From: an uncultured Bacteroidia bacterium
GTDB lineage: Bacteria; Bacteroidota; Bacteroidia; Bacteroidales; UBA932
Direction of reading: 5' to 3'
DNA length: 64,000 bases
NCBI GenBank assembly: GCA_902774155.1
Contig: CACYHF010000021.1
Coordinates: forward strand, 1 to 64,000
In this document: piece after piece, positions 15,388-20,127 of the stretch
How positions within the stretch are numbered: position 1 is the stretch's first letter
How the letters are laid out: the number at the start of each line of letters is the position of its first letter
Notes under the pieces: generated by a model
Databases searched by the model: none
The model's input: the letters and a program-made list of their open reading frames with translations, nothing else
Told to the model about the DNA's origin: nothing
Made by a program: the position numbers and the translations under genes

Positions 15388-15969
15388 ATGGACTATCTGA
15401 ATTATACGGAAAAAGAGCTGGTTGCCCGGGCCGTTCAGGGCGACCAGATGGCCTTCCGTGCCCTTTACCAAATCCACGAACGGTCCGTACGCGGCCGGGT
15501 CAGCGGTTACTTCCAATGGAAGGCCGATGTGGACGATGTGGTCTCCGAGAGCTTCCAAAAGGCGTTTGCGGCCTTGGGCAGCTTCGATGTCTCGCGCGAA
15601 TTCAGGCCCTGGCTCCTGACCATCGCCACCCGCACGGCGCTGGACCATCTTTCCAGCATCCAGCGGGAGGACGAGAAGAAGGAAGGCATCCTGCACAAGG
15701 CTTCTTCCGAAAGCGGAGACAGCGTTCCCCTTACGGATTTCACGCCGGAAGAGGAAATCATCAACGATGAAGTGCACCAGCGGCTTATGCAGTACATCGA
15801 CGAGCTTCCCTCCCTGTACAAGGACGTGATGATCAAATATATGATAGAAGAACTGGAATACGAAGAGATTGCGAAAGAGCTGGACCTGGAGCTGAATACG
15901 GTCCGCACGCGCATCCGCCGGGGCAAGCAGCACCTGGCCCAAATGATGCTCCGGGGGGAGGTGGAATGA
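15388..15969 (+). CDS. ECF-type RNA polymerase sigma factor
   Basis: A 193-residue sigma-70 family (ECF) protein. Region 2 covers residues about 10-95, with ADVDDVVSESFQKAFAALGS for core binding and -10 recognition. Region 4 (about 135-185) has the helix-turn-helix YEEIAKELDLELNTVRTRIR. No anti-sigma gene is adjacent, so control may be by expression level. It lies six bases after polA and overlaps rsmG by ATGA, so the three genes are probably one transcript. ATG 15388 was preferred to an upstream TTG. Confidence 0.9.
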   Translation: MDYLNYTEKELVARAVQGDQMAFRALYQIHERSVRGRVSGYFQWKADVDDVVSESFQKAFAALGSFDVSREFRPWLLTIATRTALDHLSSIQREDEKKEGILHKASSESGDSVPLTDFTPEEEIINDEVHQRLMQYIDELPSLYKDVMIKYMIEELEYEEIAKELDLELNTVRTRIRRGKQHLAQMMLRGEVE

Positions 15970-16619
15970 ATGCGGCCGATTTTCTGTCCTTTGTAAAGTC
16001 CGATTTCCCGCTCACTCCCCTGCAGGAACAGCGCTTTACGGCGCTGGATTCCCTGTACCGGGAATGGAACGCGCAGATTAACGTAATCTCCCGCAAGGAC
16101 ATCGATGCCCTGTATGAACATCATGTCCTGCATTCCCTGGCCATCGCCCGCTACCTTTTAACAGTACCGGGACTCTATGAACGCTTTGCCTCCTCATCTG
16201 TGATGGATCTGGGGACCGGCGGCGGTTTCCCCGGCATTCCGCTGGCCATTCTCTTTCCATCGGCCCACTTTGTCCTCTGCGATTCCGTTGGGAAGAAAAC
16301 CATTGTGGCACAGGCGATTGCATCGGCATTAGGTTTGGAAAACGTGCGCGTGGTGAACGCCCGCGCCGAATCCCTGCCCCAGGTTTTCGACTTTGTTGTT
16401 TCCCGGGCTGTCGCCTCCCTGCCGGACTTTTATCCGTGGGTCAAGGGCAAGTATTCCCAGGGTATCCTGTACCTGAAAGGCGGCGATGTGAACGAAGAGA
16501 TTGCCCTTACTATGGCCCGGCACCGGCTGCCGCGCGGCAGTGTGCACACCTGGCCCATATCGGCCTGGCTCCAGGACCCCTGGTACGACGGAAAACTGGT
16601 GATTCATTTTGAACGCTAG
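15966..16619 (+). CDS. rsmG: 16S rRNA (guanine(527)-N7)-methyltransferase RsmG
   Basis: RsmG methylates N7 of G527 in 16S rRNA; its loss gives low-level streptomycin resistance in other bacteria. The 217-residue protein shows the typical NAQINVISRKD (about 35-46), the SAM loop MDLGTGGGFPGIPLAI (about 78-93), and VSRAVASLPDF. Length matches the family. It is the last gene of the polA-ECF-rsmG set and is followed by the independent rpmH promoter. Confidence 0.95.
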   Translation: MNAADFLSFVKSDFPLTPLQEQRFTALDSLYREWNAQINVISRKDIDALYEHHVLHSLAIARYLLTVPGLYERFASSSVMDLGTGGGFPGIPLAILFPSAHFVLCDSVGKKTIVAQAIASALGLENVRVVNARAESLPQVFDFVVSRAVASLPDFYPWVKGKYSQGILYLKGGDVNEEIALTMARHRLPRGSVHTWPISAWLQDPWYDGKLVIHFER

Positions 16620-16637
16620 CAAGAATCTCAAAAAATA

Positions 16638-16669
16638 TTTGGCGTTTTGAGTGGGAATTACTACCTTTG
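16638..16669 (+). promoter_or_regulatory. rpmH promoter
   Basis: TTTG (16638-16641), 20 bp, TACCTTTG (16662-16669), 36 bp before the rpmH ATG. It is one of the best consensus matches in the window. Confidence 0.75.
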
Positions 16670-16705
16670 CAGTCCTTACGCGAAAAATAATAAAACAGAG
16701 ATATC

Positions 16706-16858
16706 ATGAAAAGAACATTCCAACCTTCCCGCCGCAAGCGCGTGAACAAGCATGGCTTCCGCGCCCGGATGGCCAGCGCCAACGGCCGCCGCGTTCTGAG
16801 CGCCCGTCGCCGCCACGCCCGCAAGAAGCTCTCCGTCTCCGACGAAGACCGCTGGTAG
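16706..16858 (+). CDS. rpmH: 50S ribosomal protein L34
   Basis: A 50-residue, very basic protein beginning [20 protein letters not shown] and containing [15 protein letters not shown], diagnostic of ribosomal protein L34. It is a single-gene transcript with its own strong promoter upstream and a Rho-independent terminator seven bases after the stop. Adjacent rsmG is translation-related, but the genes are separately promoted. Confidence 0.98.
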
Positions 16859-16864
16859 AAATCG

Positions 16865-16893
16865 AAGCAACCCACCCGGGTTGCTTTTTTTTT
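16865..16893 (+). terminator. rpmH Rho-independent terminator
   Basis: AAGCAACCC (16865-16873), loop ACCC, GGGTTGCTT, then a run of T. Nine-pair stem directly after the rpmH stop. Confidence 0.9.
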
Positions 16894-16942
16894 ATTTACC
16901 CCCGTGGCTGTCAACTGACTGATTGTCAATATCTTATTATAT

Positions 16943-16971
16943 AGTCCTCGTTCAAAAATCGAACGAGGACT
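16943..16971 (+). repeat. Left hairpin of the REPtron-like element
   Basis: Stem AGTCCTCGTTC (16943-16953), loop AAAAATC, stem GAACGAGGACT (16961-16971). The whole 29-mer is the exact reverse complement of the right hairpin at 18712-18740; the tail motif TTAGCTGCCAC is at 17000-17010. Confidence 0.9.
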
Positions 16972-17040
16972 TTACGTTAACTCGCTAATAATGTGCATCT
17001 TAGCTGCCACAGGGGATTCGCACAATTGAATTGGAAGGGG

Positions 17041-17048
17041 TATCTTTG
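17041..17048 (+). promoter_or_regulatory. -7 element before the REPtron unknown gene
   Basis: TATCTTTG matches TAnnTTTG, 18 bp before ATG 17067. It favours that ATG over the upstream TTG at 17031, which would precede the transcription start. Confidence 0.5.
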
Positions 17049-17066
17049 GCCGAAAAAAGAGTACAG

Positions 17067-17615
17067 ATGATTTACGAGGGAGTATTAGCGCTGTTCTATC
17101 TCTGCTCTCCAGAATTGGAAGAGCCGCAGATACCGTACAACATCAATTGGGAGGAGCAGGAAACGGCCGATTTGCTTGCGTTCGTACAATTGGCAACCAA
17201 GGAACTGTCTCTAAGGGGACTCCAACCCACCCTAAAGCCAGAAACAGTACGCATTACTTCCTCTCTGAGGATTTTTATCGGCAACAAAGAATTGAAGGTA
17301 AGACCTATGGCAAAAACCGTCCTGCTACTTTTCCTCAAACATCCGGAAGGGATCCCTCTTAAGCATATTTCGGATTATCAGGAGGAACTAACATCCTACT
17401 ACAGAAGAGTAAGCAAGAGTTCCACCAGGGAGGAAATAGACCGTCGTGTTGTAAAAATGATGGACTTGTTCAACAACGAACTGAATGTGAACATTGCCCG
17501 AATCAACCGGGCCGTGGCCAATCTGGTAGACGAGGCCTCCAGCTACCTGATCACCGGCGATGCCGGCTATCCCAAAAGCATTCCCCTTAACCGAAAATGG
17601 GTCATTTGGGAGTAA
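17067..17615 (+). CDS. Conserved protein of unknown function, partner of the Y1 transposase
   Basis: A 182-residue soluble protein that I do not recognise as a named family. The central part has a beta-strand-like LRIFIGNKELKVRP followed by MAKTVLLLFLKHPEGIPLKH and an ISDYQEELTSYY helix, suggesting a winged-helix-like fold. The C-terminus ends in SIPLNRKWVIWE. Related proteins with a PMAK..LLFLKHPEGI core occur in Bacteroidales, from memory. Being inside the hairpin-bounded element with the transposase, it may regulate it or bind the hairpins. The ATG fits the promoter; a TTG at 17031 would add 12 residues. Confidence 0.65.
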   Translation: MIYEGVLALFYLCSPELEEPQIPYNINWEEQETADLLAFVQLATKELSLRGLQPTLKPETVRITSSLRIFIGNKELKVRPMAKTVLLLFLKHPEGIPLKHISDYQEELTSYYRRVSKSSTREEIDRRVVKMMDLFNNELNVNIARINRAVANLVDEASSYLITGDAGYPKSIPLNRKWVIWE

Positions 17616-17762
17616 GGAATAAATAAAAAAACCACCTAATCGTAAGAAATCGCAAAAGAATCACCTGAAACAACACAATGTTTTTTACGATGCTTCCTTT
17701 TCCGGATACTTCTGGATATCTTGCAAACACGCATCCTACCAAGGAGAGGAGATGTTTGAGCT

Positions 17763-18683
17763 ATGAAAACGAGGAAAGTATATCCGGGAGAGGTACACCA
17801 TGTGTGTCAGCAGACCATTGACGGGGTGGTGGTGTTCTACACCCTCTGTGACTTTTTGGTTTATTTCACCATCTTTTGCACAGTGGCCCGGCGCTATGGC
17901 GTGAAAGTGCTGGCACTCTGCCCGATGGTGGACCATACCCACAACACCGTGGTGATACAAAGCGGACTTCAATTATCCCGCTTTGTCCAACAGTATACCC
18001 ATTTATTCTCAAAAGAATGGAACCGTTCCAGAAAACGGGAAGGGCCGCTGTTCAAGCACCGTTTCATGAGCTCTGTAAAACTGGGGAACAAGCAGGTGAA
18101 GACCACCATTAATTACAATAACAACAATCCGGTTGAACGCAAACTTGTCGTGAATGCAGAAGATTATCGTTGGAACTTTCTCCGCTATGCCAAAGAGGCA
18201 TTTCCCTTCTCGGAACCGTTCCAATTATCCGGAAAGTCCACGATGTTCCGTAATATCCTAAAAGAGATAACTCGAATCTATGAGGACGGCGGTTATTTGC
18301 GCTACAGCTACTGGGAAAGATGGAGAAAAGCCTTGAAGGGAACTGAGATGCAACAATTGGCAGATTATGCAATTCAACTCTGGAATGTTATTGATTATGA
18401 AGAGATTATTAGCTATTATGGGGATTATGAAACCCTGCTGCGCTCCACCCATGACAATACGGGAAGCGACTACGATATCAAAGAAGACAGGAACACCTAT
18501 TCCGATTCAGTATATCAGGAATGTTCCCTACTGCTCCTGAAAGAAGGGGTCATCCAGCATCCCTTTGAGATTCCCACGCTGCCTGCCGACAAGAAAAAAA
18601 CCATCGCGGAAATGCTGCAGTACCGGACAACAGCCCGCCCCCGTCAAATTGAAAAATATCTCCACCTTCACCGTGACAAGTAA
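17763..18683 (+). CDS. REP-associated / IS200-like Y1 (HUH) transposase
   Basis: A 306-residue protein of the Y1 transposase superfamily. It starts MKTRKVYPGEVHHVCQQ, has the metal-binding HUH pair H58-T-H60 in LCPMVDHTHNTVV, and a candidate catalytic tyrosine Y78 in FVQQYTHLF. GPLFKHRFMSS and NYNNNNPVERKLV follow, as in REP-associated tyrosine transposases. A long C-terminal extension (about 170-306) is unassigned. It would nick and rejoin single-stranded DNA at hairpin ends. The flanking hairpins at 16943 and 18712 are the likely substrates. Confidence 0.85.
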   Translation: MKTRKVYPGEVHHVCQQTIDGVVVFYTLCDFLVYFTIFCTVARRYGVKVLALCPMVDHTHNTVVIQSGLQLSRFVQQYTHLFSKEWNRSRKREGPLFKHRFMSSVKLGNKQVKTTINYNNNNPVERKLVVNAEDYRWNFLRYAKEAFPFSEPFQLSGKSTMFRNILKEITRIYEDGGYLRYSYWERWRKALKGTEMQQLADYAIQLWNVIDYEEIISYYGDYETLLRSTHDNTGSDYDIKEDRNTYSDSVYQECSLLLLKEGVIQHPFEIPTLPADKKKTIAEMLQYRTTARPRQIEKYLHLHRDK

Positions 18684-18711
18684 ATGATTGATTCATTGAA
18701 TATTACAATAT

Positions 18712-18740
18712 AGTCCTCGTTCGATTTTTGAACGAGGACT
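18712..18740 (+). repeat. Right hairpin of the REPtron-like element
   Basis: Stem AGTCCTCGTTC (18712-18722), loop GATTTTT, stem GAACGAGGACT (18730-18740). Same stem as the left end, loop inverted; tail motif TTAGCTGCCAC at 18769-18779, again 28 nt away. Confidence 0.9.
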
Positions 18741-18783
18741 ATTATATAAAATACTGTGATTCAACAGATTAGCTGCCACGCGG

Positions 18784-20127
18784 CTACTTCTTGATGGGAT
18801 AGAGGCGAAGGAGCAGGAGGATGAGGAGGGCGATGGCGGCCGGGAAGAGGGAGAACAGACACCAGATCATCTGCTGGACGGAGGCTTCGTTGGTAATGGT
18901 TACCACGGTCTGTCCGGTAATGGGGTCCTGGCTGGAGACCAGGCCGGCAATTCCCAGCAGAAGCGCCACCAGCGCACCCGAAATGGCCGATCCAAACTTC
19001 TGGGCCATGGTGCCGGAAGAGAAGATGAGGCCGGTAGAGGAGGTACCGTCCTTCTCAGTGGCATAATCCGCCACATCGGCGTACATGGACCACAGCAGCG
19101 GGGAATAAATGCCGATACCCATCGAGGTGACAATCACGTTGGCGATCATAAGCCAGATATAGGCCGGATCCATAGGAATGAAGAAGAAGGCGACAGAGGA
19201 AACGGCACAGAGCGCAGCCGCCCAGGCAAAGGCCTTGTGCTTACTTCCCACCCACTGGGTAAAACGGGGAGTAATGCCGCCGAAGATCATACAGACCGCC
19301 TCGCCGAACATCATAAACACCGTGTAGTTGATGATGAGACCGGCAACCGTTACATCTCCGTGCATACAATATTCAAACAGATAGGCCGCCACGGCATAGC
19401 GGAAACCATTGAAGAAATTGGTGCAGATGCCGATGAGCGTAAGGTATATCCAGGGTTTGTTGTGAACTAGGTCTACGAAAGGCTTGAAGGAGAATTTTTC
19501 GGCCCTGACAGGCTCCAGGCGTTCTTTGGTGAGCAGGCCGCAGGCCAGGGTGCCTAAAGCGGCCAAAGCGCCCAACACAACGCCTAATACGGCATACTGA
19601 TGCGCCGGCGTACCACCCACCATCTTCTGCAAATAAGGGAAGGAGAAGAGGGTGATAAAGCCCATCGCATAGGCGCCTACCATCCGGAAAGAGGAGAACT
19701 GGTTGCGCTCGTTGCTGTCGTCGGTCATAACGCCCAGCAGGGAACCATAAGGCACGTTAACGGCCGTATAGACCACCATCATCAGGAGGTACAGGGCATA
19801 GGCATAGGTCCTTCTTCCGGCAGGGCCCAGATCCGGCGTATAAAGCAGCAGGGCGAAAACCAGGCCCAGCGGAATGGCACCGAAGATGAGCCAGGGCCGA
19901 TAAGTGCCCCAACGGGACTTGGTTCTGTCTGCGATGGCGCCCATCAGCGGGTCCGTCACTACGTCGAAAAGGCGTGCCAGCAGCATCAGGGCGCCGGCAT
20001 CGGCCACGGTGAGGCCGAAGATGTTGGTGAAAAAGAACGGGAATGCGATGGACATGACCTTCCAGGTGATTCCGCCGGCAGCGGCATCGCCCAGGCCATA
20101 GCCTATTTTCTCGGATAATTTTGCCAT
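18784..20127 (-). CDS. MFS glycoside-type (GPH) oligosaccharide:cation symporter
   Basis: A 447-residue twelve-helix transporter of the glycoside-pentoside-hexuronide family. MAKLSEKIGYGLGDAAAGG and LFDVVTDPLMGAIADRTKSRWGTYRPW are diagnostic. In this locus it most likely carries mannobiose or short manno-oligosaccharides from periplasm to cytoplasm, where the epimerase and GH130 act. It has its own promoter and lies beyond the terminator of the enzyme operon. Substrate is inferred from context. Confidence 0.9.
   Translation of the reverse strand: MAKLSEKIGYGLGDAAAGGITWKVMSIAFPFFFTNIFGLTVADAGALMLLARLFDVVTDPLMGAIADRTKSRWGTYRPWLIFGAIPLGLVFALLLYTPDLGPAGRRTYAYALYLLMMVVYTAVNVPYGSLLGVMTDDSNERNQFSSFRMVGAYAMGFITLFSFPYLQKMVGGTPAHQYAVLGVVLGALAALGTLACGLLTKERLEPVRAEKFSFKPFVDLVHNKPWIYLTLIGICTNFFNGFRYAVAAYLFEYCMHGDVTVAGLIINYTVFMMFGEAVCMIFGGITPRFTQWVGSKHKAFAWAAALCAVSSVAFFFIPMDPAYIWLMIANVIVTSMGIGIYSPLLWSMYADVADYATEKDGTSSTGLIFSSGTMAQKFGSAISGALVALLLGIAGLVSSQDPITGQTVVTITNEASVQQMIWCLFSLFPAAIALLILLLLRLYPIKK

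Follow-up and report, generated by a model that had tools for sequence, protein, structure and literature searches.

The locus described here lies in a 64,000-nucleotide stretch of genomic DNA from a probable Bacteroidales bacterium (the whole stretch analyzed, hereafter the window) and comprises two genes, a putative REP-associated tyrosine transposase (RAYT) and a partner gene upstream of it, set between two hairpins with a common 11-bp stem (AGTCCTCGTTC/GAACGAGGACT) (Table 1). An earlier note on this DNA had described both hairpins and, exactly 28 nt past each of them, the tail TTAGCTGCCAC, and all of these were recovered; what it had missed was the inverted tail upstream of each hairpin (GTGGCTGTCAA at 16904 and GTGACAAGTAA at 18673), which is half of the structure, as each hairpin is the center of a 107-bp palindromic unit. 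The RAYT stop codon (18681-18683) falls within the right unit. The partner start codon was picked by comparison with relatives, and the neighboring genes are those that we take, from knowledge of their families, to be rsmG, rpmH (L34), and an MFS-type transporter gene.

Table 1. Features of the locus, with positions in the window
Feature	Position	Strand	Basis or remark
rsmG, chromosomal anchor of the locus, outside the element	15966..16619	+	used as marker
rpmH (L34), upstream neighbor	16706..16858	+	
Left REPIN-like palindromic unit, 107 bp: GTGGCTGTCAA-arm-hairpin-arm-TTAGCTGCCAC	16904..17010	.	sequence; own-genome copies have the same layout
Left-unit central hairpin, 11-bp stem, 7-nt loop	16943..16971	.	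sequence
Left-unit right tail TTAGCTGCCAC	17000..17010	+	sequence
Partner gene, 182 aa, PhoB/OmpR-type winged helix (predicted)	17067..17615	+	predicted fold; no Pfam family above cut-off
RAYT gene (putative), 306 aa; HuH D57-H58-T59-H60, catalytic Y118, NNP 121-123; helical C-terminal extension	17763..18683	+	
Right REPIN-like palindromic unit, 107 bp, with the RAYT stop codon in its GTGACAAGTAA end	18673..18779	.	sequence
Right-unit central hairpin, 11-bp stem (13 bp over 18710-18742)	18712..18740	.	
Right-unit right tail TTAGCTGCCAC	18769..18779	+	sequence
MFS-type transporter gene, convergent neighbor downstream	18784..20127	-	

Transposase and partner protein

The transposase matched Pfam Y1_Tnp (E 1e-6) and NCBIfam REP_Tyr_transpos (E 3.9e-12), scoring under the curated cut-off of NCBIfam NF047646 (46.3 bits versus 80 required); all 16 aligned relatives matched the NCBIfam model at E <= 0.001, with D57-H58-x-H60 and Y118-NNP invariant throughout. 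Its predicted model (pLDDT 74; weak near the tyrosine, with residues 107-129 below 50) matched by fold IS608 and ISDra2 as well as 4er8, the structure of a REP-associated transposase. By its sequence, the protein is a Y1/HuH enzyme of the RAYT type with intact catalytic residues. It is single copy in its own genome, which also holds one relative at 37% identity and one far relative (22%).

For the partner, sequence searches gave no family. In the predicted model (pLDDT 72), the part ahead of the first strand is only about 60 residues long, mostly helical and of low confidence, and there is no N-terminal phosphoacceptor receiver domain. The 50 matches shown of 138 (Foldseek, E <= 10) were all PhoB/OmpR-like DNA-binding domains or proteins with such a domain; the best E value was 0.024, with probability up to 1.00, and no match reached E 0.001. 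With moderate confidence, the predicted fold is that of a PhoB/OmpR-type winged helix, in keeping with the wHTH-like character that had been suggested from the sequence.

Linkage was counted among fetched loci, which take in only some of the weaker RAYT matches. The partner adjoined all 30 distinct RAYTs of one clade (support 100/100 in a tree of 67) and lay within about 1.5 kb of none of the 37 distinct RAYTs outside the clade, some of whose loci end earlier at contig ends. Put by identity, it stood beside every RAYT of at least 50% and, within about 1.5 kb, beside none of 43% or less. The two genes shared a strand in 29 of the 30 clade loci. Within the clade, hairpins flank the homologous pairs and the pair is linked in other genomes; the association proposed in the earlier note thus holds here and not among the 37, many of which are still flanked by paired hairpins, so the evidence does not support the partner as the fixed part of a Bacteroidales system that the note had supposed. 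The exception in strand is L075 (G350), where the two genes converge on a palindrome that separates them, seemingly through a flip of the RAYT alone.

The partner is single copy and has no other relative in its own genome. Across 398 genomes of the family, relatives (E <= 1e-3) occurred in 90, in many cases at the C-terminal end of a longer open frame; in one genome (G003 contig 1, about 1159742-1163608), several matches to the C-terminal portion of the partner lie close together. Partner genes lacking a RAYT were clear at the same site in L161, L174/L076, and L078 and elsewhere in L080 and L082, and in L082-L088, which were reached from partner relatives, no RAYT lay within about 1.5 kb. Seven genomes with a near partner and no RAYT beside it (G395, G320, G465, G440, G429, G293, and G272) held no RAYT above 43% identity, an absence that is not certain in draft assemblies. 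A tree that includes these solo partners requires three label changes and has 15 of 34 inner forks open, so that a single ancestral group of solo partners is one possible reading among others; the RAYT may have joined a resident partner gene, or it may have been lost several times.

Might the partner be a working subunit of the RAYT, for targeting, hairpin melting, or repression, so that the pair is one machine? We hold this to be rather doubtful. Apart from the constant pairing in the clade, largely on one strand, it draws on a RAYT-partner distance correlation of 0.947, higher than that between the two halves of the RAYT (0.849) and still 0.885 after correction for three host genes (each protein versus rsmG, 0.61-0.62); without the L100-L103 cluster, however, these values fell to 0.77 for RAYT and partner, 0.823 for the RAYT halves, and 0.545 after correction (host-gene values, 0.62-0.72). 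The RAYT-less partner genes at the locus and elsewhere also weigh against it, as do the dispersed units of partner-less RAYTs. One such RAYT is the second of the window's own genome (L039; G000 contig 41, 14258-15166), which has its own palindrome family (stem AATCGATTAC, tails GTGGAGATAAG/TTATCTCCAC); the stem occurs at 10 sites, 9 of them with tails of the GTGGAG/CTCCAC type, some altered. The linkage, moreover, was probably a single event at a single locus rather than 30, since all 14 named relatives with rsmG found carry the pair beside it. By their distances, RAYT and partner do share much of their history.

The partner is thus a lineage-specific companion drawn from a wider family, given its relatives in that family and the solo partners in seven genomes; its occurrence without a RAYT and the dispersed units of a partner-less RAYT argue against a hairpin recognizer. 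That candidate role, raised in the earlier note as a hairpin-binding factor, was rejected, as partner-less RAYTs have comparable units. In partner-less relatives, such a protein is dispensable for recognizing or spreading units. Most likely, the partner is a DNA-binding regulator of the operon or of the locus.

Palindromic units and their insertion sites

With up to three mismatches, the stem pattern occurred 31 times in the 2.43-Mb genome, and the reversed-pattern control occurred 0 times; 29 of the 31 hairpins are located away from the RAYT gene. A tail was present on both sides (at least 8 of 11 positions) in 28 copies and on one side only in the other 3, against a one-sided background at the same threshold of 84 in 4000 random stretches. 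Within the window, the tail TTAGCTGCCAC alone gave two matches at up to one mismatch, both exact (0.93 expected; at least two in 23 of 100 shuffles), which is not beyond chance, so the weight rests on its fixed place and on its recurrence in the genome. Dispersed hairpins that match a RAYT relative bear out the label of a REPtron-like unit given in the earlier note. By the standard of REPs, 31 copies, and 10 in the second family, are few.

All 31 copies were read with their flanks. In the per-column table, the arms of both sides, read outward, follow one consensus, roughly TTTATTGTAA, CTGA...TCAG, and TTAGCTGYCAC, with TTA at a fixed place in 37 of 62 arms and TTG in 16. The central stem is mostly paired among the copies, with a small number of two-sided changes. 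Small arm hairpins are enriched (mean best stem, 2.34 versus 1.33 ± 0.20 in shuffled arms) and were not found in 24 of the 62 arms. A GTAG tag is no general feature: of the 62 arms, 9 carried GT[AG]G close to the small hairpin, with 3.3 expected by shuffling. In G346, G424, G315, and G468, units stand in tandem 125 to 134 bp apart, and the spacers within the unit triplets of G346 and G424 are near identical.

RAYT relatives (E <= 1e-20) were present in 177 of 300 genomes of the genus; the window's stem (at most one mismatch) occurred in 16 of the 300, and at 16 copies or more in only 4. These four (G000, G315, G424, and G468, with 28, 46, 56, and 16 copies) hold the closest RAYTs (100, 75, 75, and 71% identity, respectively). 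G538, with a RAYT 70% identical, had 0 matching stems, and G488, G346, G527, and G412 (RAYTs of 65 to 66%) had 1 or 2 copies each; several of the remaining stem matches, which carry one mismatch and differ in their loops, look fortuitous. RAYTs of other lineages lie between different stems with different tails, the two tails here too being inverted versions of one another, as in CTGGTCGGTAA/TTATCGACCAG, TTGATCGCTAA/TTAGCGATCAA, and GATCACTTAAC/GTTAAGTGATC. The TTA adjacent to the tail recurs in many lineages but not all (TTG in L048). The finder used for outer arms is weak on single units, as 426 of 3000 random centers reach its threshold of 8/11 and 76 reach 9. As far as the sequences tell, stem and tails are lineage specific and matched to the local RAYT.

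A crude open reading frame caller places 15 of the 31 units in tandem gaps, 11 in convergent gaps, and 1 between divergent genes, the other 4 falling within genes that it called. In 7 of the 31, the last codon of a neighboring gene ends 46 positions from the unit center, and the neighbor takes its stop from the TAA of the tail.

The site after nth was sought in 25 genomes; 23 loci were shown, and 18 had nth and its THUMP-like neighbor in view (left out were L239, which is truncated, and four without the neighbor). Twelve of the 18 gaps held a unit, 5 were empty, and 1 (G478) held joined tails only; filled, empty, and collapsed forms of the site thus occur between species. At the nth 3' end, a full unit in L232 (G272) compares with two joined tails in L237 (G478) between similar flanks, and the latter are a candidate excision or deletion footprint, for which replication slippage at the palindrome could also be the source. 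The RAYT stem was known for nine genomes. In five of these, the cognate locus alone gave the best match to the stem in the nth unit, and in three the sister stems of G000, G269, G424, and G315 tied; in the ninth (G345), the script picked another hairpin, and the cognate stem was seen by eye. Distance from the nth stop varies, the stop lying within the tail in G000 and G424 and the unit 17 nt past it in G412. Own-genome stems at differing distances favor repeated insertion over inheritance and suggest that the units between nth and its neighbor are independent insertions in different species; recurrence at one site could be partly inheritance with sequence homogenization.

Between pheS and hppA, the neighbor was seen in 2 of 25 loci, so these loci were used solely to record units directly after pheS. 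Units follow the pheS stop in L193, L198, L203, L205, and L209, with other stems in L202 and L204, and the gene after the pheS unit is not always the same between species.

The units could instead be bidirectional transcription terminators or structured RNA elements, with the transposase merely lying between two of them, which we consider very unlikely. In favor are their strong stems, often near stop codons, and the gaps that they occupy (11 of 31 convergent, versus 8 convergent among the window's gene pairs, the rest being 31 tandem and 8 divergent). Against this, arms of about 40 nt are conserved on both sides without covarying within the unit (left and right tails identical at 7.97 of 12 positions versus 7.99 ± 0.22 in permuted pairs; P = 0.53), stems and tails change with the local RAYT, and tandem arrays repeat the spacer too. 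The RNA-structure reading was rejected on that permutation result and on Rfam, which matched nothing at gathering scores in 16600-18900. Termination may nonetheless be a side effect.

Chromosomal locus and orientation

Fifteen named records carry the pair, and rsmG was in the fetched flank in 14 (it was not found in the L095 record); relative to rsmG, the pair is direct in 7 and inverted in 7, or 8 and 7 with the window included. In the genus, rsmG was present in 138 genomes, and the best 30 of these gave the rsmG loci compared here. Five (the window among them) show the pair, or its RAYT, in direct orientation and four in inverted orientation. Four further loci show the partner with no RAYT in view: L161 and L174 are clearly RAYT-less because the MFS gene follows the partner, L167 shows only about 640 bp beyond the partner, and L168 is cut by the contig end. 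Two loci (L154 and L173) hold a distant RAYT with no partner, one (L163) is empty, with rpmH and the MFS gene about 130 bp apart, and the remaining loci have other neighbors or none of these genes in view. In L174/L076 (G395), the stretch from rsmG to the MFS gene contains partner and rpmH, both read against rsmG; an inversion at this locus can thus take in the ribosomal protein gene.

These partner-less RAYTs lie downstream of rsmG in L154 (G484; 37%) and L173 (G444; 41%), and their presence at the site of the partner clade would mean either repeated colonization or an old RAYT site. In L171 (G272, positions 2472-2583, with rsmG forward), the gap that separates rpmH from the MFS gene contains an array of three near-identical TAGGGTGCACC hairpins, which may belong to a further repeat family.

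Across these loci, the cassette keeps to one place in either orientation. That unit, partner, RAYT, and unit form a composite transposon jumping together is very unlikely and was rejected: like ends do bound two genes, and both orientations occur, but the cassette is single copy in its own genome, is fixed beside rsmG in all 14 named relatives with rsmG found, gave five weak matches in plasmid records, none covering 80% of the query (phages were outside the search), and its flipping is explained by recombination between the inverted palindromes.

Interpretation and comparison with known systems

REPIN-RAYT systems have been described mainly in proteobacteria. The present locus is best read as a Bacteroidales form of that system which lacks the GTAG tag: the region is probably the master locus, with the units as non-autonomous miniature elements that the RAYT appears to spread in trans. 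The conserved TTA is the best candidate for the cut, since it mostly persists where stems and tails change and since what lies between the tails is missing from the G478 footprint. IS608 is cleaved at TTAC, which resembles this TTA. By analogy with REPINs (PMC3116915) and TnpA-REP (PMC8266576), a unit exposed as a single strand would fold into a clover around its central stem, the RAYT would bind the folded single strand, and its tyrosine would cut near TTA at both sides; a copy of the unit would then be re-inserted elsewhere and would survive mainly near stop codons. Binding, cutting, and copying by the RAYT are what we infer from these systems.

A more elaborate proposal, which we think unlikely, is that the clade RAYT recruited a dedicated OmpR-type winged-helix protein controlling when or where the REPIN-like units are copied, with the bounding palindromes acting as an inversion switch that sets gene orientation relative to rpmH. 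If true, a domesticated transposase would have become a regulated two-component machine.

The RAYT relatives in 177 of 300 genomes of one genus point to a widespread, untagged version of the REPIN-RAYT system, a setting in which to ask what makes a host retain a transposase that does not propagate its own gene. Its repeat families, which shift along with the transposase, and its natural filled, empty, and collapsed sites lend themselves to comparative tests of recognition (stem, tail, or TTA), and a single clade with a candidate regulator offers a comparison of what a companion protein adds.

As far as the available parts of PMC3116915 (2011) describe the REPIN-RAYT system of Pseudomonas fluorescens SBW25, it has in common with the present one two inverted conserved arms around a central hairpin, a RAYT in single copy to which a repeat class of its own is matched, clusters of tandem units that take in flanks, excision footprints smaller than the element, and a proposed clover fold. 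The system here differs in lacking a general GTAG tag, in being most conserved at the central stem, in the lineage-specific tails that follow the TTA, in a copy number of about 30, and in the OmpR-type partner gene of one clade.

In host and in atypical repeats, the nearest published subclass, from the portions of PMC6006769 (2018) at hand, is TnpA-REP subclass 2.6 (RAYT group 5 in the scheme of Bertels 2017 as given there), which likewise belongs to Bacteroidetes and has atypical, non-GTAG flanks with copies elsewhere in the genome; length and motifs differ. Proteins of subclass 2.6 have a median length of 179 aa and the motifs NH[LIV]H and YIH[QN]NP, with HuH and Y a median of 82 apart, whereas the present protein has 306 aa, DHTH, YNNNNP, and a distance of about 61 and is set apart by the description in that source. 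Apart from this Bacteroidetes subclass, the listings and passages of the one literature library searched describe no pair of a RAYT and a regulator.

TIRtrons (TIRYT), in the sections of PMC3733652 (2013) that were available, also place a RAYT-like gene between inverted, partly self-complementary, non-GTAG repeats, with some repeat families; none of the 31 units here contains the motif GGGGWSAS that some of their repeats share.

Finally, the TnpA proteins of IS608 and ISDra2 (IS200/IS605) share with the present system their fold, the catalytic motif, and subterminal hairpins; unlike those elements, the one described here is not a multicopy insertion sequence, and its transposase gene keeps to one locus.
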